Shown: positions 26,518 to 42,900 of the stretch, one piece after another
Layout: every line of letters begins with the position of its first letter
How positions within the stretch are numbered: position 1 is the first letter of the stretch
Assembly (NCBI GenBank): GCA_963281255.1
Contig: OY725492.1
Location: forward strand, 3,401,104 to 3,465,103
Origin: Aphrocallistes beatrix
Taxonomy: Eukaryota; Porifera; Hexactinellida; Sceptrulophora; Aphrocallistidae
Direction of reading: 5' to 3'
DNA length: 64,000 nucleotides
The notes under the pieces: model-generated
Database searches by the model: none
Told to the model about the DNA's origin: nothing
The model's input: only the letters and a program-made list of their open reading frames with translations
Position numbers and translations under genes: made by a program

Positions 26518-28375
26518 TAAATTTAGGAATAATTTTAGGACAATTATGTTAATTAAAAGGCCTATTTCGAATATATTTCAACTATCAAAAAAATAAAAAC
26601 ATAAGTATAATGGAGGAATAGAAATTCAGTTGAGTACTGAGTTTATTATCTTCATAGATGTAGACATTCTAGATATCACAGCTTCTCCACTGAATGTTAA
26701 TTAAGAGTAATCGTTCTTAGAATATTTGGGATTTATAATACCAAAATGAGATATGAAGTTCTAGTAACCAAATCCATCATTCCGCCTTTAGTACTGTTCT
26801 CTTTTGAACAGTGAGGCTCCTTCTTTTTTGATTGATAATTCTTTTTCCAATCTTGATATTCTTTTCTGTAGCTTCACATTATGGAGCATTAAGAGCTTAA
26901 GATGTGCTTGAAAGTCTCTCTCGTCGTGCAGGACCATCTCCCTCCTCTGTACCTTCACTCTGCACCCGAATTGAGAGAAAGGACACTCTATAATGTGCAA
27001 GGGACAGTCTTGAGTGAGATGAATAGACATGTTCTTCCTTTCCATCGCTTTTGCTCCATTACATTTATTAGGACAGGTAATATAAACATCTCCACAGATG
27101 TTTAAATGTGTGTTCATTCTACAATATTTGATTGTAGAGTTACAGTTGTCACATTGAACAGTTCTCATGGGACAACATGCCTCGTGTGCCGCTACGTCCT
27201 TCCTTCCCACCTTACACACATTTCCTTTCTCATCCTTACATCCCAGAGGACAGGCCACAGGGAGTAGTTCACACTCTTCAAGATGATGGAGCAGCCTACT
27301 CAGTTCATCTTTCCAAGAACAACCTCTGATGGGACAGGAAACCTTTAAAAGTGGAAATAAATAATTCCGTGAAACGACACTATTCATAAACAAGTTAAAT
27401 TGAACCTCACCTTTTTCTTGATGATAGTATCTCTATTTATCTGAGCTGTTTGTTTGTTTACATTATTGGGAATACAAAACGAGCATGCAACTTCTTGTTT
27501 ATCACCATTCATAAACAAACAAGCATTTCTTAACATTCCTCTGCAGTAGTGACAGAGTAGAAAATTGGCTTCTGTCGTCGTTAACATTTCAATGAACAAT
27601 TCTCTCTTCCATCCTCCGTAACTACCATCATCTCGCCTCACACAAACTAGCTCGTCAAATCGGCATCTCGTGTCTAGACCAGAAGTGGAGTTAAGATCAG
27701 AATACAGAGAAATATTTACTCCATCAGAAGACAATACAAAAATATCTGGATGTTTCCTGATAAATTGCATCAAAGTTCCATATTTGCTGCTATATTTCTC
27801 GGTCCAGGAAGTGCCCGTCTTTTCACGGATAGTACGAAGGATGCGATCATGAGAAGCTGGTGATTTTCTTTTCATCAGAATCGAGACAATAAGCTCTGTT
27901 GGGTCTGCGTAGTCAGCAGCTGTGAGGGAATCCTCGCCCCAGGTCCCACGATTTCGACTCTTCGCAGCTAGGTCGACGCTATCCACAGAATCGAAATCTC
28001 TCCTTCTCTTACCAGAAGAGGAAATTGTGTTGGTTGTGGGATAAAGCATGGAAGTGGAGGAGCTAGGCTCAGTTAAGGATTTACTCCTAATCTTCTCGGA
28101 AATAGGGCGCGTTGGCGGATTTAAGAACTTCGTACTGAATAGGGAAGGTCTAGTCAAGTGTGAGATAGATGCAGGATGGAGAGGTTTCGGTATCACAGAC
28201 CCGCTCGAATATATCTTTTTTGTCTTCATTGCTTCAAGACGCCTGATTAGTATTACTGATGTGGTTTATAACAAAGCTATAATTTCATATACAAATACTT
28301 GAATAAAATGCCAGTTATATTATCTAATACGAGCAGTGTAAGCAGTCTTAAACCTAATATATATTGAGTTCCACA
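26518..28375 (-). repeat. Segmental duplication unit A (TRAF gene 1 plus flanks)
   Basis: Matches 30029-31860 throughout coding and flanking sequence (3' flank aggaataattttagga... at 26524 and 30035). It continues beyond the gene start to tacgagcagtg...gcagtcttaaacc at 28329-28352. In unit B that same end lies at about 35531-35555, pushed away by a transposon cluster. Confidence 0.88.
26788..28229 (-). CDS. TRAF-type zinc-finger protein with winged-helix and RING-like segments, gene 1
   Basis: Two exons: 28229-27411 and 27342-26788, with a 68-bp GTGAGG...TTTAAAG intron in phase 0 (27343-27410), giving about 457 residues. The N-terminus is Ser/Pro/Arg-rich with a basic GKRRRD stretch. A winged-helix segment follows (ELIVSILMKRKSPAS ... 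FIRKHPDIFVLSSDGVNISLY), which I read as LOTUS/OST-HTH-like. Next is a RING-like cluster (CHYCRGMLRNAC ... ACSFC) lacking an obvious RING His. Exon 2 encodes three to four TRAF-type zinc fingers (CPIRGCSW, CPLGC, CPMRTVQCDNC, CPNKC, CPFSQFGC) and a short coiled coil, then stops without a MATH domain. TRAF fingers usually serve signalling complexes downstream of immune or death receptors; the actual partner here is unknown. It lacks a 12-residue piece present in gene 2. Confidence 0.82.
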
Positions 28376-28609
28376 CCGATGTTAGATGACTCTTAATTTT
28401 TTGACTTTCTTAAAAGTGCTTTTGATAAAGATATTTTGATTTGAATCAAATGTAGAAAAACTGAAATCAAGAGTTATGACAAAACAACAGATACAAATAC
28501 AATACATATACATAACAGGATAGGGAATCATACATAGTACAGGTAATTCATAATAACAAGTAAGTACATACATATATACACATCACAAAAAACAACAGTT
28601 ACAATGTTC

Positions 28610-28680
28610 AAAGTTAGTATGTACAGTAAGTGATCTAGTATACAGTTATACTAAGTCACTTAATGTACATACTAACTTTT
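28610..28680. repeat. Short inverted repeat (hairpin)
   Basis: aaagttagtatgtaca at 28610 is complementary to tgtacatactaactttt ending at 28680, with a loop of about 38 bases. It lies upstream of TRAF gene 1. Confidence 0.7.
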
Positions 28681-28912
28681 AAGTGCTTTAATATACATGT
28701 ATTTCAATTTTAAAACAATTTCTACTAATCCTCTTGTGCGGTTTGGTGCCTTTGATTAAAAGTAGAGAGATGTGTAAATATATTCCAAATGTTTATTGGC
28801 AAATATTCATGAAGACGAACCCTGTAAGTATAGTATCCTAAATGATCTAAATAGTGATCAGTTTCAGATCTGATGATACGGCTGTATAATGAATTAATAA
28901 ATACTTCTAGAA

Positions 28913-29046
28913 ATCAGGAATAATTCCACCAAAGTATCTAAAACATACCAACCCTTTTCAAAAGGATCAAATGTTTTGATACTACCACTGTATCAAAACA
29001 TCCTTTTGAAAAGGGCTTTATATACTTTAGTGGAATTATTCCTGAT
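28913..29046. repeat. 134-bp palindromic MITE-like element
   Basis: Arms atcaggaataattccacc and its complement, with an inner pair cccttttcaaaagga / tccttttgaaaaggg and gttttgata/tatcaaaac. Almost the whole element folds on itself. No TSD was identified. The rest of 29047-30028 has no supportable feature. Confidence 0.75.
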
Positions 29047-30028
29047 GCGTATGTTTCTTTAAAACCGGTTACTCTCAAAATACACTCTCCATAATAAAGA
29101 AGATCTCACTGACTGAAGAAATTTGATGAACATAGGCTGTTAATGAAGAAATTTGTAGTTGACCATAGAAATGAACTCATAATCAAAAGGTGGAGAGTAG
29201 TGCTGAAAACTGTGAATATTATCACAAAAAATTTGATACTTTAAGAAATGCTTTAAAAATATTAGAGCAAAGACTTGGTTAAAAAGATGATTGATTACAA
29301 AGTCTATGTTTTTGAGAAGCGGATGAACTTTCTAAATATCAAAAATGCAATAACGTCGCATTCAGCAAAAGAAAACTCTTACGAACTTACAAGCAAAAAA
29401 AAGAATTTCTTCAGGTCTGACACTGAACAATCCAATTTTCCTTTCCTTTAATGAAAAAATAATGTTGAATAGTCTGGCGGACGTACAAGGATCATTGTAT
29501 AGTTGAAGATTATGTTTTCAGAAGTGGAGCCAATGAAAAGTCCTTCATCGGCCCTAAGGGGTCTAAAGCGTGTAAACCCGACAAAAGAATTTCCACGATT
29601 TCAAAGACTGTTCTTCCATTGAGGTTGAAGTTAACTCGAATTATTATAGTATGTGATAGGGGAAAGTGTAGAATTACTTATCTATTCAGAACCAATGTCC
29701 AAAATGTATTAACTTAGATTGAAATCAGCCTGTCCATCAAATGAGGCACCGGTTTGCTCTAAAAATCGGCGCTGACTCTTCCGGAGCCGCCATTTTTGGG
29801 GTTTTAACTCTGAAAAAGCTTAGAGGGAGCACTGATCGGCGAAACCACCTCATTTTCGAAAATTGACAAGAAATACAGAAAACTAATTGGAAACCCAGAT
29901 AATGCACACTGCACACTGCATATTATGATATGTCACAAATTCACAAAAGTTATACAAGAGTAAGAAATGATAGTTAAGAGAACAATTCAATAATGTTTAG
30001 AAATATAAATATACAAATACGTACGTAT

Positions 30029-31860
30029 AAATTTAGAAATAATTTTAGGATAATTATGTTAATTAAAATGCCTATTTCGTATATATATTTAAATTATCAA
30101 AAAATAAAAGCATATAGGAATAGAAATTCAGTTGAGTACTGAGTTTATTATCTTCATAGATGTAGACATTCTAGATATCACAGCTTCTCCACTGAATGTT
30201 AATTAAGAGTAATCGAATCGTTCTCAGAATATTTGGGATTTATAATACCAAGATGAGATATGAGGTTCTAGTAACCAAATCCATCATTTCGTCTTTAGTA
30301 CTGTTTTCTTTTGAACAGTGAGGCTCCTTCTTTTTTGACTGAAAATTCTTTTTCCAATCTTGATATTCTTTTCTGTAGCTTCACATGATCGAGCATTAAG
30401 AGCTTAAGATGTGCTTGAAAGTCTCTCTCGTCATGCAGGACCATCTCCCTCCTCTGTACCTTCACTCTGCACCCGAATTGAGAGAAAGGACACTCTATAA
30501 TGTGCAAGGGACAGTCTTGAGTGAGATGAATAGACATGTTCTTCCTTTCCATCGCTTTTGCTCCATTACATTTATTGGGACAGGTAATATAAACATCTTC
30601 ACAGATGTTTAAATGTGTGTTCATCTTACAATATTTCATTGTAGAGCTACAGTTGTCACATTGAACGGTTCTCATGGGACAACATGCCTCGTGTGCCGCT
30701 ACGTCCTTCCTTCCCACCTTACACACATTTCCTTTCTCATCTTTGCATCCCAGAGGACAGGCCACAGGGAGTAGTTCACACTCTTCTAGATGATGGAGCA
30801 GCCTACTCAGTTCATCTTTCCAAGAACAACCTCTGATGGGACAGGAAACCTTTAAAAGTGGAAATAAATAATTCCATGAAACGACACTATTTATAAACAA
30901 GCAAAACTGAACCTCACCTTTTTCTCGACGATAGTATCTCTATTTATCTGAGCTGTTTGTTTGTTTACATTATTGGGAATACAAAACGAGCATGCAAGTT
31001 CTTGCTTACCAGCTGTAATAAACAAACAAGCATCTCTTAACATTCCTCTGCAGTAGTGACAGAGTATAAAATTGGCTTCTGTCGTCGTTAACATTTCAAC
31101 GAACAATTCTCTCTTCCATCCTCCGTAACTACCATCATCTCGCCTCACACAAACTAGCTCGTCAAATCGGCATCTCGGCACACCATCGCTGTGGATAGGT
31201 TCAGGGGGTGAGGTGTCTAGACCGGAAGTGGAGTTAGGATCAGAATACAGAGAAATATTAATTCCATCAGAAGACAATACAAAAATATCTGGATGTTTCC
31301 TGATAAATTGCATCAAAATTCCATATTTGCTGCTATATTTCTCAGTCCAGGAAGTGCCCGTCTTTTCACGGATAGTACGAAGGATGCCATCATGAGAAGC
31401 TGGTGATTTTCTTTTCATCAGAATCGAGACAATAAGCTCTATTGGGTCTGCGTAGTCAGCAGCTGTGAGGGAATCCTCGCCCCAGGTTCCACAATTTCGA
31501 CTCTTCGCAGCTAGGTCGACGCTATCTACAGAATCGAAATCTCTCCTTCTCTTACCAGGAGAGGAAATTGTGTTGGTTGTGGGATAAAGCATGGAAGTGG
31601 AGGAGCTAGGCTCAGTTAAGGATTTATTCCTAATCTTCTCGGAAACAGGGCGAGTTGGCGCATTTAAGAAATTCGTACTGAATAGGGAAGGTCTGGATGA
31701 GTGTGAGTTAGATGCAGGATGGAGAGGTTTCCGTGGCACAGACCCGCTCCAATATATCTTTTTTGTCTTCATTGCTTCAAGACTCTTGATTAGTATTATT
31801 GATGTGGTTTATAACAATGCTATAATTTCATATAAAAATACTTAAATGAGATCCCAGTTA
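30029..31860 (-). repeat. Segmental duplication unit B (TRAF gene 2 plus flanks)
   Basis: Partner of 26518-28375 at a spacing of about 3.51 kb. Its distal end is interrupted at about 31870 by the transposon cluster and resumes at about 35526-35582. Confidence 0.88.
30295..31772 (-). CDS. TRAF-type zinc-finger protein with winged-helix and RING-like segments, gene 2
   Basis: Exons 31772-30918 and 30849-30295 with a 68-bp phase-0 intron at the same place as gene 1; about 469 residues. Same order of parts: basic Ser-rich N-terminus, winged-helix segment (ELIVSILMKRKSPAS, KHPDIFVLSSDGINISLY), Cys cluster (CHYCRGMLRDAC ... ACSFC), TRAF fingers and a coiled coil ending KREFSVKK-like before the stop; no MATH domain. 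It keeps a 12-residue insert (SPPEPIHSDGVP) before CRFDELVCVRRDDG that gene 1 has lost in frame. The open reading frame is intact, and most differences from gene 1 are conservative, so both copies appear to be under selection. The promoter side is heavily altered by the inserted cluster 31874-35525. Confidence 0.82.
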
Positions 31861-31873
31861 TATTATATTATAT

Positions 31874-32319
31874 AAGTAGAGGCGCCCTTCGCGCGCCTAG
31901 GCTCACATTGATTAATGAGGATGTGGATAACATCTCTGGATACGTCTGTCTTCCTGTTATAATCGATATCGTTCGAAAAATCACAAAATTTGTCAATTTT
32001 TTTTGATGCGTAATGATGACGTCATAACAGAGAGATGAATCATCATTTTTTTTATGAGAGTAGCATCAAATTTGTTATGTATTAATATACACATTCTATT
32101 AAAATTTCAGCCATCCATCACATAAAATGGCTGAATTATAGTTGAAAAACTGAAATTTCTAATTATAAAAAGGTGACAATGACGTCATAATTCGATGATG
32201 GGTTGACGTTTCCGTGAGGTCAGAACTTAGTGGAGCCATAGCCAAAAGACTCCCACATACCAAAAATCAGCTTTCTGCGCTTGGCAGTTTCTTCAATCAA
32301 TTCGTTACAGATACATATA
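31874..32319 (+). mobile_element. GC-headed MITE, copy 6 (divergent head)
   Basis: The head is reduced to ggcgcccttcgcgcgcc. Body words (gataacatctc, aatgatgacgtcataac, tgacaatgacgtcataat) and the ttcttcaatcaattcgttac tail are as in other copies. Confidence 0.75.
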
Positions 32320-33086
32320 TCCTTACTATTAAAACTCGATTAATCTATATACGTATATATATACAGTCGACTCGCTTAATAGGGCCACTGTTTAATTGGG
32401 TCAACCGCTTAATCGGGCCACTTTTGGTAGGACCGGAATAGCTCTTACACATAGAAGCTAATACAAAATATTTTCGGTTAATAGGGTTCTCCGCTTGAAT
32501 CGGGCCAAAATGTCCTCTGACCGATGTGACCCTATTAAGCGGAGTCGACTGTATATACAAGCGCGCTTCGCTTGCTTGCGCTGCGCGGCTGGCGGACACT
32601 GTGTCCGCCGGAGGCGCCCTTTGGGCGCCTGTGGTCACCATTGATTAATTATATGGGAAACAACATCTCTAAATACGTCTGTCCTACTATTATAATCGAT
32701 ATCGTACGGAAAAATCACCAAATTTATCAATTTTTAAAATTTTGGTGCGTATTGATGACGTCATCACAGAGTGATGAGTCATCATTTTATGATAGTTGCA
32801 TCATATGTGAGGTATGTTGCTATACAGATTCTATTAAAATTTCAGCCTTCTATCTCTTATAATGGCTGAGTTATGCTCGAATAACTGTATTGCTTAACTT
32901 TTGAAAATGTGACAATGACGTCATAATTCCATGATGAGTCGACATTTTACTCTGAGCTCAGAACTTAGTGGAGCCATAGCCAAAAGACTCCCACATGCCA
33001 AAAATCAGCTTTCTACGCCTGGCAGTTTCTTCAATCAATTCGGAACAGAGAGAGAGATATATACATATACAGTTTAATAGTAAGGA
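32320..33086 (+). mobile_element. GC-headed MITE, copy 7, interrupted by a pogo-like MITE
   Basis: Left terminal repeat at 32320; the TA spacer is broken by 32364-32551; GC head at 32558; ends with tttaatagtaagga at 33086. Confidence 0.75.
32364..32551. mobile_element. pogo/Tigger-like MITE, type A, copy 1
   Basis: Ends cagtcgactcgcttaat and ...aagcggagtcgactg with TA on both sides; 188 bp. The same family occurs at 34474, 52548 and 58651. Confidence 0.85.
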
Positions 33087-33090
33087 TATA

Positions 33091-33567
33091 TCCTTACTAT
33101 TAAAACTCGATTAATGTTTACAAGCGCGCTTCGCGCTTGCTTGCGCTGCGCGGCTGGCGGACACTTTGTGTCCGCCGGAGGCTCCCTTCGGTCGCCTGGA
33201 GTCACATTGGTTAATTATAAGGGAGATTACATCTCTAAATATGTCTGTCCTACTGTGCTAATCGATATCACTCGAAAAATCACCAAATTTGTGAATTTAA
33301 AATTTTTTGATAATAGTTGCATCATATGTGAGGTATGTTAGTACACAGATTCTATTAAAATTTCAGCCTTCTATCTCCTATAATGGCTGAGTTATGCCCG
33401 AATAACTGTGTTGCTTAACTTTTAAAAATGTGACAATGACGTCATAATTCCATGATGAGTCGACATTTTGCTCTGAACTCAGAACTTACTGGAGCCATAG
33501 CCAAAAGACTCCCACATGCAAAAAATCAGCTTTCTGAGCCCGGCAGTTTCTTCAATCAATTCGTTAC

Positions 33568-33604
<37 letters not shown>

Positions 33605-33632
33605 AATAACAATCGAGTTTTAATAGTAAGGA
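33091..33632 (+). mobile_element. GC-headed MITE, copy 8 (complete ends, internal deletion)
   Basis: Best-defined member: left end tccttactattaaaactcg at 33091 and right end cgagttttaatagtaagga at 33632, 542 bp. The segment with the first TGACGTCA and the TGAGTCA is deleted (aattttttgataatagttgc). Confidence 0.85.
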
Positions 33633-33651
33633 CAAGCGCGCTTCGCGCTTG
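33633..33651. repeat. 19-bp GC palindrome wedged between two MITEs
   Basis: caagcgcgcttcgcgcttg sits exactly between the right terminal repeat of copy 8 and the left terminal repeat of copy 9. It equals the opening of the MITE head, so it may be the rest of a MITE reduced to its head, or an insertion target. Confidence 0.75.
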
Positions 33652-33687
33652 TCCTTACTATTAAAACTCGATTAATGTTTGTTTGTT

Positions 33688-33720
<33 letters not shown>

Positions 33721-34215
33721 GTAACGAATTGATTGAAGAAACTGCCAGGCGCAGAAAGCTGATTTTTGGCATGTGAGAGTTTTCTGGCTATGGCTCCAGT
33801 AAGTTCTGAGCTCAGACGAAAATGTCAACTCATCATGGAATTATGACGTCATTGTCACATTTTTAAAAGTTAAGCAATACAGTTATTCGAGCATATCTCA
33901 GCCATTATAGGAGATAGAAGTCTGAAATTTTAATAGGATCTGCATACTAACATACCTCACATATGATGCAACTATCATCAAAAAATGATGACTCATCACT
34001 CTGTTATGACGTCATCATTACACATCAAAAATTTTAAAATTGACAAATTTGCTGATTTTTCGTGCCTTATCGATTATAGCATTATGACAGACGTATTAAG
34101 AGATGTTATCTCCCATATAATTAATCAATGGTGATCACAGGCGCTTCCGGCGGACACAAAGTGTCCGCCAGCCGCGCAGCGCAAGCAAGCCAAGCGCGCT
34201 TGTATACATATATAT
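33652..34215 (-). mobile_element. GC-headed MITE, copy 9 (inverted)
   Basis: Begins with tccttactattaaaactcg, has ctgtaacgaattgattgaag at 33719 and ends in the GC head with agcgcgcttgtata near 34205. It faces copy 8, forming a large inverted pair. Confidence 0.78.
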
Positions 34216-34414
34216 CCACAGAAAGCTGATTTTGGCATGTGGGATTGCTATGGCTCCACTAAGTTCTGAGCTCAGACGAAAATGTCGACTCATCATGGAA
34301 TTATGGCCCCATTGTCACCTTTTTTATAATTTGAAATTTCAGTTTTTCGACCATAACTCAGCCATTTTAATTGATAGAAGGCTGAAATTTTAATAGAATG
34401 TGTATATTGATATA

Positions 34415-34755
34415 CAGTCAGGGTCGCTTATTGTGAACCACTAGGGGACCAAAAAATCTTCATAATAGAGATACAGTCGACTCCGCTTAATAGGGTCACA
34501 TCGGTCAGAGGACATTTTGACCCGATTAAGCGGAGAATCCTATTAACCGAAAATATTTTGTATTAGCTTCTATGTGTGAGAGTTATTCCGGTCCTGCAAA
34601 AAGTGGCCCGATTAAGCGGTTGACCCGATTAAACAGTGGCCCTATTAAGCGGAGTCTACTGTACTTCATATTAAGCGAACTTGATTCAATACAAATCCTA
34701 TCTAAAAAATGAAATTGGGACCAGGAGGTTAGTTCATAATAAGTGACCCTGACTG
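34415..34755. mobile_element. Inverted-repeat MITE (cagtcagggtcgcttatt ends), itself carrying a nested MITE
   Basis: cagtcagggtcgcttatt and aataagtgaccctgactg are complementary apart from one position and are flanked by TA. The element is broken at 34474-34661 by a type A pogo-like MITE. Confidence 0.8.
34474..34661. mobile_element. pogo/Tigger-like MITE, type A, copy 2
   Basis: Ends cagtcgactccgcttaata and ...aagcggagtctactg; TA on both sides. It is inserted inside 34415-34755 in the opposite sense to copy 1. Confidence 0.85.
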
Positions 34756-34775
34756 TATCTCAAATATGATTCAAC

Positions 34776-35262
34776 CAAGGTTGCAACCGAATAGTTCACT
34801 ATTCGGTTAGACTAATACTATTTGGCAAATAGTTGATATTCGATTGAGAACCGAATATCAGTATTTGTATTCGGTTAGAGTGACCGAATATCAGTATTCG
34901 TATTAGGTTGAACTAACCGAATATTATCAGTATTCGTATTCGGTTAAGGAATATTCATGAATATTTATATCTGGTTCAATCGGTTTCAACCTTGGTTATG
35001 ATATATTTTCTAGCTAATTTACCTATCATTTCCAGTCACTATCTGTAAAATAGGTCAACATACAGTAGTATAACAATTCACAGTCCTCTATTGAAGATTA
35101 TTTATTTCAGCTTCAGTATTAGAACTTATGAAGTACCCGAATAATATCAGTAGTTGTATTCGGTTAGAGTAGCCGACTAGCCGAATATTATCAGTATTCG
35201 TATTCGGTTCAGGAACTATTCATGAATACTGATATTCGGTTCAATCGGTTTCAACCTTGGAT
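34776..35262. mobile_element. Inverted-repeat element with gaatatcagtattcg repeats
   Basis: Opens caaggttgcaaccgaat and closes atcggtttcaaccttgg; an internal copy of the same end lies at about 34980-35000. Near-8-bp flanks gattcaac / cattcaac fit a hAT-like target duplication. Short words gtattcggtta and gaatatcagtattcg are repeated several times. Confidence 0.65.
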
Positions 35263-35596
35263 TCATTCAACTATCTTCAAAAAATGTTGACTCATTACTT
35301 TGTTATGACGTCATCATTACGCATCAAAATTTAAAAATTGACAAATTTGGTGATTTTTCGTGCGATATTGATTATAACAGTAGGACAGCCGTATTTAGAG
35401 ATGTTAAATTAATCAATGTGACCCCGGGCGCCTCCGGCAGACATAAAGTGTCTGCCAGCCGCGCAGCGCAAGCAAGCGAAGCGCGCTTGTGTATATAAAC
35501 ATTAATCGAGTTTTAATAGTAAGGATTATATGATACGAGCAGTGTTAGCAGTCTTAAACCTAATATGTATTGAATTCCATTTGCCCATTGGTAATA

Positions 35597-35897
35597 CAGT
35601 GCACCCTCACTAATCCGAACACTTCATTCTTACAATCCGAACACCCGAAATATAATATTATTCGCCTCTATACTTTAAATCAACGTTTATAACATTATAT
35701 ATTTCAATAAGATTGAGAAACCTCATTAAAGAAGCAATCATAACAAAGTATTATCCTTAATATTCTAACAATTCAAATTTTTTATAGTTAATACCCCATT
35801 AAATTAGTGTTATTTCACTAATCGGAACAAATTCACTAATCCGAACGATTTTTTCGATCATTGGCACAGAGCTGTTCGGATTAGCGAGGGTGTACTG
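35597..35897. mobile_element. pogo/Tigger-like MITE, type C, copy 2
   Basis: Ends cagtgcaccctcactaatcc and ggattagcgagggtgtactg, TA on both sides; 301 bp with a body matching 24631-24964. 35898-36387 holds no clear gene and probably includes the 3' UTR of the next gene. Confidence 0.82.
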
Positions 35898-36387
35898 TAC
35901 TAAACTTGTTTCAGTTACAAAAAGACCATCAGTGTGGATTTTAATTAATTATAATATAATTGTAATTAGAATATCCCGAAATACTCGTATAAGGGTCTTT
36001 TCTATTTATAGTACGGACCCTATCTTTCTATTGCTTCCCAACCCAAAATTACTTAAAGCAGAAATGACGCAACACATTCCTGGAACCCCGGGGTGTTATT
36101 TGTATCAAATTCTATTAATTCTATAGGGATAAATCGAAAACAGAAAAGTAGAATATCTTGAAGAGAAAAAACATAGTATTTTGCACATTTAGGGATTTGC
36201 AGAGTGAGTCCTTAAACAAAAAGGAAATCAACCTACTAGTTAGTTGAACACCATACATAAAATATAACACTACATCGAATATACTTGTAGGAGTCTACGA
36301 ATAGAGGAACTTAGTTCCTAAAATGAAAGGAATTCGTAAAGGTATAAAAACAAAGTAGAGAAGTGGAGATAATCAAATATTGTGAGT

Positions 36388-39300
36388 TTATGTGTAGAGT
36401 ATTTGCTCTACTGAAATGTTAATCGTGATTGAGCCATCTCTGCAATATTTCTCCTGCAAAATCCCAGTTTTAGTGATGAAATTCCTCCAACCATAGCCTC
36501 TATTGTGGACGGTAGTCGGCTTTTGGAAGCATTCAGGACATTCTTCTAACTTTTCAACAGAAACCTTACTCGCTCTCTTAAAATTATCTTTGGCATCAAT
36601 TTGGTTGATGAGTTCTGCAGTGTATTTGTACCTGAGAGGCCATTTGAGAGTGTCATCCCATTCTCCTTTGAAAATGTAAAGAAAGTAGGCTATATCATCT
36701 TGTGCATAATCCCATTCAATACAACTCCTGAACTTGTACATGCCTACGTAGAAGGGATCCGTGTAGGTTCTAGTCTTCAGTAATATTAAATCTTTAATCG
36801 AACAAATCTTCCATTTCAGAGTCCATTTCGGGACTAAACAAGACATCATGGCAGATAACGATTGGATCTCCATTTTATCATTTCTCAATTCCTTATTTTC
36901 TTCTTCTAATCGGGATACTTTGAGTTGCACGTTTCTAAGAGTGTTTGAAGTGAGATTGAGATGTATGCGGAGATACTTTTTCTCATGGGAAACCAAATCT
37001 CTTCTCAGCAACTTAACCGCACATCCGTATTGAGAGTAAGCACATTCTATTTCTTGAAGGGGACACTCCTGACTGAGATGATTATACAAGTATCCCCTTC
37101 TCAAGGTAACTTTGTCTCCACACTCATTCGGACAGGAAATGGGAAACTCTTCACAGAATTCGTAGTGTGAATTCATTTTACAGGAAATAACTTCAAGGCT
37201 ACAGTAGTCACACTTGATAGCTCTCATGGGACAATATGTCTTGTGCGATTCTACTGCCTTTCTCTCAACCTTGTTCACTTCTCCTTTCTCATCTATACAA
37301 CCCAGAGGACAGGGGAGAGGGAGTAGTTCACACTCTTCTAGATGATTGAGTAAGCAGTGCAGTGCACCCATCCAAGCACAGCCTGTGATGGGACAAAATA
37401 CCTATAATATAGAAATGATGTGTTCAGTACTGGTAATTCATTGAACATTTAAAATAATTAGGAATTATATAAATGAATTCAAAGAGTACATCCGAACTCG
37501 AAAAATTACAATTTATCATTAATCACATTCCTTAGAAATTTCAGTTTTTCGGAGATAACTCGGGTATTGTAAAGTGGCGTAGCTAGATATTTTAAATTAT
37601 TAAGCACTCCTCGAAATTGGCGCCCCACTTCCACCTGAAAATAAAATTTTGATAGCTATTTTTTCTGAATGTATTAATCAATTGTTCAATTATAATTGAT
37701 TAATCAAATGCGAGGAGAATTCATTAATTCTACTGAAAAAGACAGGTTCAAAAAATAGAGTTTTGTTGCCATGATTCATATTCTGCGCCCCTAGCTTCGT
37801 AATTTTAGTACGCACGTGCGTACTGTGCGTAATGCTAGCTACGCCACTGATTGTAAATGATGGAAATTTGAATCAGAAGTGTATAATAACATCTACACAT
37901 AACTTTAACAAAATAAACCGACAATAACGAGTCATCATGACGCAGCAATAATCGAATGTATTACCTAATAAGCCCATAACGCGATATATAAATGCTCAAC
38001 CACAAAATTGGGCACACATACACGTATACATAATAATATTTCCTGCATTGTTATTCCATATTGATCAATTGAATATATTCAGCCATGGTCTCGTGAGAGT
38101 AACAATATTCATAGGTCTCAAGTGACCCACCTTTGAAGGTCGAAACTTGCTGACCAGCGGTGTTTTGCCAAAAATAGAAGTGGGGTGGGGGGGCGCTTCC
38201 TTCCCGTGAAAAAGTTATATGTTTTTTCGTGAAACTTTAATCCCCTGATGGTATAGAAATGGTGATAATAAGAAAGAGAAAAAGAATATGGTTAGTTTAA
38301 AATGGCAACAATTGATTTTAATTTGTTATGCTACGTAATACATTCTAAGGCTAAAATTAAAATGGTAGTCAGTATGAGGTAAGGAGCGCCCCCCAAGCGA
38401 AAAAAGTGGGGGGGCAGCGCCCCCCCGCGCCCCCCCCAAAACACCACTGCTGCTGACCCGAATTAGTAGTAAAACTCGCATTCGCGCTGAAATATGAATT
38501 TCTCGTAAAAAGAAATCTGGTAGTCATAAGCTGATAAATTTCATTATAATCAGTTCGAATTATCTACAACGTATGTATATAATTATGGAATGTCATTTGT
38601 AAACAAGAACCATTAAATTTTCCTAGAAATATTTTCAGAATTCAGTAAATAGCGTTTCAATGGGACAGGGGGGGGGCATCCGGGGCATTTGCCCCGAGTT
38701 TGATTCTGCGGCACTGGATTTCATTTGATCACCTAAGTCAAAATCATAGGAAGGCCCCGGTTTGGAAAATCCTGTGATCCTCTAGTAACTCACATCTCAA
38801 ACGCAAATAATTCTTAGTATAGAAGCCAAGATTTGGAAGATACTAATACCAAACCTGGGCAGGACCGACCCGGCTCCCAGAATCTTAACCTTGGTGACTA
38901 TGGGACTATGGTGACCCGAATTGGGCTCACTCAAACTTGGGACCTATGAATATTAGGTACCCGTTGGACACCTCTGAATTCTGTAATTTTACCAGGCGCC
39001 CAAAGGGCGCGCATGCGAACACAAAGCCGCTCTCCGCAAGTGCGTAAAACACATTTGTTGTGAGTAAACAAAAACGCAGTCGAAATTATTTGGGTTATCT
39101 AGCTAAAAAAATGTATTTATTATTTTTTAACATTCAAAGAACAATCTTTATATTTATTTTAACCAAATGAACAATTGCAGAGAGATCTCTCTCGAGGAAG
39201 TTTAGACGCATTCTAAAAATTCTGGGATAAGATTGCTTCGCAGTAGTAAATATTATATTTAAAATTTCTCACCTGTTTTATGTCCACGTTTTCTCTATTT

Positions 39301-40031
39301 ATCTGAGCTATTTGTTTGCAAGTACTTCTGGGAATGCAAAGTGAGCATGCTAGTTCTTGTTTATCAGCTTTCATAAACAAACAAGCATCTCTTAACACTC
39401 CTCTGCAGTAGTGACAGAGTAGAAACTTCACTTCTGTCTTTCCAGTTATATCTTCAACCAACAAGTCTGTTCTCCATCCTCCGTAAGCACCATCATCTCG
39501 CCTCACACACACTAACTCGCTAAATTGACATTTCATCTCAGCACTGCTGTGTACAGATTCAGTGTCTAGAACGGAAGTGGGAATAAACCCCATAAATAGG
39601 GAGATTTTCGGGGAAGTATCTCCAGTAACTACAAATGTCTCAGGATGACTTTTTATAAAATTCAGGAAAGGTCCAAATCTGCGTTTGAACTTTATTTTCC
39701 AGCTAAATCCTTTCTTGTTACTGAGAGTTTGGCAAATCTCGCTTGGATAAGCAGGCGTCTTCAATCGCAGTAGAATGGCTACAATAACTTGCACTGGATT
39801 CGAATCATCACAATTTTCGTCCCAGGCTTTTGGACTTTTTGAAGTTCTCTCAACAATCTCCGGAGAATCTGATTCTCTCTTTCTTTTTCTAGACAAGGAA
39901 GGAGTTTCTTCTCTATCATTCAGTTCTTCAACATCCTCATCACACCCAAATAAACTGGAGAAGAGGAGACTGGAACTAGAAGTGAGAGAGTTTGAAGCTG
40001 ATGTTTCTCGAGATTCAGTATCTATCTCCAT
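36388..40031 (-). CDS. TRAF-type zinc-finger and MATH-domain protein with winged-helix and RING-like segments, gene 3
   Basis: Exon 1 40031-39273, phase-0 donor GTGAG; exon 2 37401-36388, acceptor ATTATAG; intron 1,871 bp; about 590 residues. Exon 1 parallels genes 1 and 2: acidic/Ser N-terminus, basic SRKRKRESDS, winged-helix segment (VQVIVAILLRLKTPAY, FIKSHPETFVVTGD), CVRRDDGAYGGW and a Cys cluster (CHYCRGVLRDAC ... ACSLC). Exon 2 has TRAF fingers (CPITGCAW, CPLGC, CPMRAIKCDYC, CPNEC, CAYSQYGC), a coiled coil, then a MATH/TRAF-C domain recognised by PFYVGMYKFR, FKGEWDDTLKWPLRYK and the closing DGSITINISVE. This is the complete member of the trio; genes 1 and 2 look like C-terminally truncated derivatives. 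The intron position is shared, supporting common descent. Likely a cytoplasmic signalling adaptor; the target is unknown. Confidence 0.85.
37574..37849. mobile_element. hAT-type MITE in the intron of TRAF gene 3
   Basis: Ends gtggcgtagctag and ctagctacgccactg; the 8-mer attgtaaa is duplicated at 37566-37573 and 37850-37857. 276 bp. Confidence 0.88.
38155..38449. mobile_element. hAT-type MITE in the intron of TRAF gene 3 (G/C-homopolymer rich)
   Basis: Ends cagcggtgttttg and caaaacaccactg; flanks ttgctgac / ctgctgac (seven of eight). The sub-ends are runs of G on the left and C on the right, which could form a very stable stem. Confidence 0.82.
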
Positions 40032-41182: not shown

Positions 41183-42769
41183 TCAGTAATCTACTAACTG
41201 GATTCTAAACGTAGTGAGCGCGTCAGATTTCTCAATTCTAGTGATACGGAATCTAACTCCACTAGGATAGAGGAATTCTTCTTCGCGTTGAATATCAGAA
41301 TGAACCTTGATTCCCTTTGCTGAGTATTTAGTGCCTTGAGTATTATCACAAATAAACATGCAAGATCCCGAAAAACCTTCTGCTGTGTTTCTTACCAGAG
41401 AACTTGAAGTAAAGCAAAGCCATGAGAAGATTTCCCCCTCTTTGTAGGCACTCATATCTTCCAGGGAAAGGATAATTCCTCTAAATGTAGGCTTCAGAGT
41501 AGGTAGAATGCTGGTCCAGTACATAAGGATTGAGTTCAGCAGGATTCCGTAAGCTGTGAGTGCAAGATCTTCCCCGGTGACAAAGGATGGATTGGATCCA
41601 TGACCGTGCGTACGTAACGAGGTATTCAGGGCAGAGTAAAATTTACTGCTGCAATCTTTACCTTGCCCTAGATTATGTGTTTCTATTGTATACAATTTAA
41701 TCACTCGAGAAAAAAAATCGCTTTTATTCTCGTCCACCTGATCCATAATGTTTCCACTTACATTTCCTGAAGCAAGAAAATTGGCAGTGTATACGTCTAT
41801 AGATTGGAGCTGGAGTGACACCTCCCGTCTGGCTCTCTTCCAATTCTCCCCTGAGTCAATGAACTCAAATATGTCCAACATCAAATTGGAATAGATCAGT
41901 GAATGCTCAGAATTGAGTGTTCGGGGATGGAGCACATTTTCGAAGCAATTTAAAGTTAACCAAATAGATTCAACTTCGATATCTTGTTCTCTGTCTATTG
42001 ACACTAGAGTGGGCGTTGATTTCGCTTCTAATGATTTCGTTTTAATCTCTTCGTACTGTTTGATAAGCATTTTCACAATGGGATCTTTAGCTATCATGGA
42101 GGTCGTTGATCCAGCTTTGATAACTTCATCTCGTGCCTGCTTTGTTCTTAAGAACGGGTCACATTTGGGATTCTCAAGAATTTTCTTAACAGCATCGTAA
42201 TGATTGGAATATGCAGCTTGGTGTAACAATCCCCATGCTCTGTCTGGGGGAATGAAGTTCACGATTGCTGGATATTCGTCGAGAATCTTAAAAGCCGCAA
42301 GAAAATGCCCTTGTTTTGCAAACGCTATCATTCTTTGAGTTTCCTCCGAAATATTGAATGGTTTTTTTATCCTGAACTTACGGAGCTTAGCAAGGAAGAC
42401 ACCAATTTCAAGGTCTAGTAATTTAAGTCTTTCCTTCGGATCAATTCCAGTTCCTTTGAAAAATAGTCGAATAGAATCCATTGCAATTGTAACTTCCTCC
42501 TTAGTGACTTCTACATCTAAAGGCAATTCTCTGAGATGATCAATGGAGGCTGGCTTTATTAATTCTGTCTCCTGAATCAATTCTGTCTCCTGAATCAATT
42601 CTGTTTCCTGAATCAATTCTGTCTCCTGAATCAATTCTGTTTCCTGAATCAATTCTGTCTCCTGAATAAATTCTGTTTCCTGAATAAATTCTGTCTCCTG
42701 AATCAATTCTGTTTCCTGAATAAATTCTGTCTCCTGAATCAATTCTTTCTCTTTGATTAGACAATCCAT
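41183..42769 (-). CDS. Ankyrin-like and mono-ADP-ribosyltransferase (R-S-ExE) protein with N-terminal hexapeptide repeats
   Basis: One exon, 528 residues. Residues about 10-70 are ten copies of QETE(L/F)I encoded by an 18-bp minisatellite. A helical region follows, then an ankyrin-like unit (WGLLHQAAYSNHYDAVKKIL, CDPFLRTKQ) around 180-215 with a second weak unit. The last 170 residues fit an arginine-type ADP-ribosyltransferase: FRG with Arg near 430, an FTSSS strand near 453-457, and EEE (ExE, catalytic Glu near 498) followed by FLYP. This R-S-E triad transfers ADP-ribose from NAD+ to protein Arg in ARTC-family enzymes. No signal peptide or GPI signal is seen, so it should act inside the cell, unlike vertebrate ecto-ARTs. 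The substrate is unknown; a stress or immune role is only inferred from neighbours. The start is the first Met of the frame. Confidence 0.8.
   Translation of the reverse strand: MDCLIKEKELIQETEFIQETELIQETEFIQETEFIQETELIQETELIQETELIQETELIQETELIQETELIKPASIDHLRELPLDVEVTKEEVTIAMDSIRLFFKGTGIDPKERLKLLDLEIGVFLAKLRKFRIKKPFNISEETQRMIAFAKQGHFLAAFKILDEYPAIVNFIPPDRAWGLLHQAAYSNHYDAVKKILENPKCDPFLRTKQARDEVIKAGSTTSMIAKDPIVKMLIKQYEEIKTKSLEAKSTPTLVSIDREQDIEVESIWLTLNCFENVLHPRTLNSEHSLIYSNLMLDIFEFIDSGENWKRARREVSLQLQSIDVYTANFLASGNVSGNIMDQVDENKSDFFSRVIKLYTIETHNLGQGKDCSSKFYSALNTSLRTHGHGSNPSFVTGEDLALTAYGILLNSILMYWTSILPTLKPTFRGIILSLEDMSAYKEGEIFSWLCFTSSSLVRNTAEGFSGSCMFICDNTQGTKYSAKGIKVHSDIQREEEFLYPSGVRFRITRIEKSDALTTFRIQLVDY
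42558..42745 (-). repeat. 18-bp coding minisatellite (ten units)
   Basis: Unit ctgaatcaattctgtctc on the plus strand, with c/t and c/a variants that interchange Leu and Phe in the QETE(L/F)I repeat. All units are exact multiples of three, so the frame is kept. Confidence 0.92.
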
Positions 42770-42900
42770 TCTGTATTTTAGCTAATCTATTAATTAAGTT
42801 GTATAAATAGTAACTGGTATACCTCTCAACGGGACACTCGTGAAATTAGCCAACAAAAGTCGATTGCATACCATAATCAATTTAAAATCCTTAGTCTAGT

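Follow-up and report, generated by a model that had tools for sequence, protein, structure and literature searches.

TRAF proteins are composed of a RING, TRAF-type zinc fingers (zf-TRAF), a coiled coil and a MATH domain. LOTUS domains, in turn, are known from germline RNA regulators, and Egalitarian (Egl) domains have been described as winged helix-turn-helix (wHTH) domains closely resembling LOTUS (PMC13186709). In several lineages, OST-HTH (LOTUS) domains are tied to RING as well as to other domains of the ubiquitin system, according to another study (PMC2848206), in whose main text “TRAF” and “USP” have 0 occurrences as whole words. A link to the ubiquitin system would therefore have a precedent.

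The genes described here have TRAF-type zinc fingers in common with TRAF proteins, and gene C also the MATH domain, but they lack a Pfam RING, add a winged-helix-like segment (WH) and a basic tail, and four copies (A, B, D0 and D1) are without MATH. Their WH matches an exon of a USP40-like deubiquitinase, itself closest to USP47 and USP7 among solved structures, with 40-45% identity, E-values down to 2.8e-21 and the linker included in 3/5 genes, whereas the catalytic domain of the deubiquitinase is absent from the TRAF genes. With OST-HTH/LOTUS and Egalitarian winged helices they share a remote profile likeness, although the WH scores below the Egalitarian cut-off and is unmatched by OST-HTH. 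On sequence grounds, this odd protein looks as if one ubiquitin-pathway gene had captured a domain from another, and not like the fusion of an immune gene with a germline RNA regulator. Among the matches listed in the open-access literature (titles and abstract starts), no description of a WH-Cys cluster-TRAF finger architecture was found.

Gene models and TRAF-like parts

The window, a stretch of 64,000 nucleotides from the glass sponge Aphrocallistes beatrix, contains three minus-strand genes (A, B and C; Table 1) with the order WH, Cys cluster and TRAF fingers, so that the arrangement of parts proposed in an earlier note on this DNA was borne out in all three. In each of them exon 1 is a single open frame with basic cluster, WH and Cys cluster, and because the last two sit in one uninterrupted exon, their order is independent of splicing. 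Two further paralogues lie outside the window, D1 at 3.384 Mb and D0 at 3.389 Mb of contig C6. In 5/5 WH-TRAF genes exons 1 and 2 are open and the join between them is GT-AG in phase 0, and genes A and B are 93% alike across 1757 bp. Moreover, exon 2 was recovered by pattern behind 6 of the 10 tried places without WH, where it starts with VYC or VFC directly after the AG in all six cases, five of them with an in-frame GTGAGT or GTGAGA donor.

Table 1. Features of genes A, B and C, with positions in the window
Feature	Position	Strand	Basis or remark
Gene A	26788-28229	-	whole gene
Gene A exon 1: basic tail, WH, Cys cluster; 273 aa	27411..28229	-	open frame, GT donor at end
Gene A basic cluster GKRRRD	27996..28013	-	sequence
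Gene A WH segment	27696..27905	-	42-43% identical to USP-type exon
Gene A Cys cluster (CxxC...CxxC)	27468..27653	-	sequence; no Pfam RING
Gene A intron, 68 bp, GT-AG, phase 0	27343..27410	-	sequence
Gene A exon 2: TRAF zinc fingers, coiled-coil-like end (by eye), stop	26788..27342	-	zf-TRAF 1.3e-12
MATH remnant behind gene A, in-frame stop	26713..26781	-	tblastn with MATH of C, E 0.009 (weak alone)
Gene B	30295-31772	-	whole gene
Gene B exon 1, 285 aa	30918..31772	-	open frame
Gene B basic cluster GKRRRD	31539..31556	-	sequence
Gene B WH segment	31239..31448	-	44% identical to USP-type exon
Gene B Cys cluster	30975..31160	-	sequence
Gene B intron, 68 bp, GT-AG, phase 0	30850..30917	-	sequence
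Gene B exon 2: TRAF zinc fingers	30295..30849	-	likeness to gene A
MATH remnant behind gene B, in-frame stops	30175..30288	-	tblastn with MATH of C, E 1.06e-4
Gene C	36388-40031	-	whole gene
Gene C exon 1, 253 aa	39273..40031	-	open frame
Gene C basic cluster RKRKRE	39873..39890	-	sequence
Gene C WH segment	39588..39800	-	44% identical to USP-type exon
Gene C Cys cluster	39330..39518	-	sequence
Gene C intron, 1871 bp, GT-AG, phase 0; extra small exons possible inside	37402..39272	-	sequence
Gene C exon 2: TRAF fingers, coiled-coil-like stretch (by eye), MATH	36388..37401	-	zf-TRAF 2.3e-20, TRAF-mep_MATH 1.5e-14
Gene C MATH domain	36397..36837	-	Pfam

The zf-TRAF matches of spliced A and spliced C are above the Pfam cut-off, and the fingers of gene B are assigned through its likeness to A, since the scan took spliced A and C. 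A MATH domain, named in the earlier note as an addition to this order, was present in frame in gene C only (Pfam on spliced A and C; tblastn with the MATH of C on A, B, D0 and D1). Behind A and B there is a stop-bearing remnant outside the frame, and D0 and D1 likewise have, past the frame, a short stretch that matches the end of MATH and is interrupted by in-frame stops (tblastn E 2.3e-4 and 5.2e-5, respectively); most likely, all four copies lost a MATH domain. Regarding the basic clusters, a nuclear role is conceivable, nuclear entry being predicted from these clusters alone.

The label RING-like given earlier to the Cys cluster was generous, since Pfam lists no RING family for spliced A and C (E<=10) or for exon 1 of A and B (E<=5), and a RING identity was rejected, the segment having only CxxC...CxxC. 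We take this pattern, from RING anatomy, to equal one of the two zinc sites of a RING, which makes E3 activity of the cluster doubtful. In 21 compared matches the pattern comprised CxxC ... CxxC plus intermediate Cys, the latter absent in some, and the CxxC pairs are kept in 5/5 WH-TRAF genes. The cluster recurs across a large TRAF-like family of the same genome; on other contigs, five larger frames of TRAF-like type showed a similar Cys pattern by eye, and Pfam listed no RING in either of the two that were scanned. Between A and C, dS was 0.27 in the Cys segment, against 1.54 in the WH and 1.03 in exon 2, and the low value of the Cys segment suggests gene conversion between copies.

A putative winged helix in common with a USP-type deubiquitinase

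Genome searches (100.5 Mb, 28 contigs) separated the two halves of exon 1. With exon 1 of gene C as query, at least 137 places were matched at E<=0.001 (138 of 251 candidates scored), and among the matches listed five had WH and Cys cluster, one had WH only, and the rest had the Cys part; exon 1 of gene A gave the same picture (141 rows at E<=10). A few Cys-part alignments of C exon 1 include the last few residues of the WH; the longest of them (C6:730794) starts from query residue 134 and has an internal stop, in a frame without WH by eye.

The WH-only place (C6:4309711-4310007) turned out to be one of the exons of a USP-type deubiquitinase, a source that was missed when the segment was described as LOTUS-like. 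When this exon (107 aa) was used as query, the genome gave 6 places at E<=10 (7/7 candidates scored), namely itself and the five TRAF genes, the latter with E-values from 7.2e-17 to 2.8e-21. Since nothing else matched, the presence of the WH in the TRAF genes is not a chance likeness, and all five are homologous to the USP exon by this search. Furthermore, the hhalign comparison of the four TRAF WH with the USP WH reached a probability of 99.66 (E 2.4e-25). The match extends past the WH, to residue 102-105 of 107, in 3/5 TRAF genes and stops at 95 in the other two. For hand-chosen linker stretches the observed score was reached by 6/5000 shuffles in gene B and 7/5000 in gene C, and by 265/5000 for the shorter linker of gene A, which is unconvincing.

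The joined USP-type exons match UCH in Pfam (1.8e-42), and their best solved relatives are USP47, then USP7. In the joined model, with catalytic Cys52, His303 and Asn482, the WH exon occupies residues 318-424, between His and Asn, whereas in the aligned USP47 chain the His stretch (400-433) and the FND stretch (432-476, not significant by itself) are adjacent. The WH exon measures 321 bp and is in phase 0-0 with the splice sites as chosen. Human USP40 presumably has the same WH insert, an assumption from which both the name USP40-like and the direction from USP to TRAF are taken. In one report, N452/D453 are critical residues of human USP40 and a shortened USP40 was used for the alignment, which fits such an insert but proves nothing; the AlphaFold model described there, which points to a catalytic domain without major change, does not help that reading (PMC10867860).

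The segment is a putative winged helix. Sequence matches in the PDB (chitinase A, best E 0.078 and 0.18) were at chance level and were dismissed, and exon 1 of gene C had no PDB sequence match at E<=10. Between A and C, dN/dS of the WH was 0.58/1.54, whereas the WH of D0 (L009 6146-7027) had a dN of 0.13-0.15 for a dS of 0.11 against A, B and D1; with dN equal to or above dS in D0, the WH is not under uniform constraint. The N-terminal part of D0 equals that of D1 in protein, but its WH has many amino-acid changes, with a dN of 0.14 for a dS of 0.11.

Likeness to LOTUS and Egalitarian domains

A true RNA-binding LOTUS/Egl-type domain, which would make these proteins RNA-sensing or RNA-localising TRAF adaptors, is an unlikely though not negligible reading of the WH. 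OST-HTH (PF12872, cut-off 23.8 bits) had no Pfam match in spliced A and C or in the WH of A, C, D0 and USP (E<=10), nor in exon 1 of A and B (E<=5). In the genome search, 13 places were found for OST-HTH, 11 of them above the cut-off, and none corresponded to the WH-TRAF genes or the USP exon. LOTUS membership was therefore rejected, and the link to germline RNA, as drawn in the earlier note, is likewise unsupported.

The LOTUS look itself survives as a distant one. WH_Egal (PF23713) gave weak matches, the best with 21.6 bits (E 3.1e-4), which favor an Egl-type domain, a relative of LOTUS as outlined above, but all scores were under the cut-off of 27 bits. DUF7725 (PF24851, cut-off 25) was passed by the WH segment of D0 (27.2 bits, 26.1 in the genome search), while A (22.5), C (18.2) and USP (17.6 bits) remained below, and the match covered no more than roughly the second half of the model. 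In addition, hhalign profiles were built from eight OST-HTH segments (of the 13 genome places) and five WH (A, B, C, D0 and USP). Their comparison scored 23.65, a value reached by 0/100 column shuffles (maximum 13.88), with 65 columns aligned without realignment. On the other side, the probability was 34.5, against 98.5 for LOTUS split in two as a control (another control being the TRAF-USP comparison given above), and the alignment shrank to 25 columns upon realignment; moreover, the four TRAF WH gave 37.9 against LOTUS and the USP WH alone 0.62. In this context, a remote LOTUS likeness of the WH is probable.

Candidate origin and function

We consider it likely that one USP40-type WH exon was fused to a TRAF-like gene, and that duplication of the product then yielded adaptors that lack a RING and carry a module for binding partners or nucleic acids. 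Accordingly worded as a sequence of events, exon 1 of a member of the TRAF-like family would have gained the WH exon of a USP40-type deubiquitinase, probably once, the resulting gene would have been duplicated to five genes, and four copies would have lost MATH, with homogenisation in addition. A single fusion is favored because the basic tail and the junction are common to all five TRAF genes. Simple intronic exon shuffling fails to explain that junction, since there is no intron between WH and Cys cluster. The direction and number of captures, as well as the function, are what we infer from these comparisons.

That the USP exon was captured twice independently, or moved in reverse from TRAF to USP, has a low probability. 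The WH identities are nearly star-like (A-C 37%, A-USP 43%, C-USP 44%), and as a counterpoint to the single fusion the WH of A is slightly nearer to the USP exon than to the WH of C, which leaves room for two captures; nevertheless, A and C have the basic tail and the junction in common, and the WH occurs in only five clustered genes of a large TRAF family. It is also improbable that A, B and the near-copies are decaying genes without protein function, as the missing MATH, with a stop-bearing remnant at the frame end, and the recent near-identical copies (A and B) might indicate, given open exons 1 and 2 together with conserved CxxC pairs and splice sites in 5/5.

If the single fusion holds, coiled coil and fingers (plus MATH in C) may let the proteins assemble into RING-less adaptors or decoys. 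Their WH would then direct them to the ligand of the deubiquitinase WH, either a protein partner or RNA. A TRAF-like scaffold would thereby be placed on deubiquitinase targets, possibly in the nucleus. A bolder version, to which we give little credence, is that of lineage-specific immune-type adaptors with the recognition module of a deubiquitinase on a TRAF scaffold, acting as RNA- or partner-sensing, RING-less nuclear decoys. Should the single fusion be right, it would represent a traceable move of a small domain between two ubiquitin-pathway gene families, the winged-helix insert of a deubiquitinase would be a portable module, and these natural TRAF-like fusions could be used to seek the partner of that module.

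Some minor observations concern the surroundings of these genes. Places that carry the Cys exon of these genes, in either orientation, make up a large block (C6:4429058-4674742), which starts about 0.12 Mb from the USP-type gene on one contig, a closeness that speaks for the proposed capture. A 532-aa frame (window 41186-42781, minus strand) has N-terminal ELIQET-type repeats and weak ankyrin and ADP-ribosyltransferase matches, all under the Pfam cut-offs. Between genes A and B, at about 28910-29050 of the window, a conspicuous inverted repeat was seen by eye, perhaps a small transposable element.
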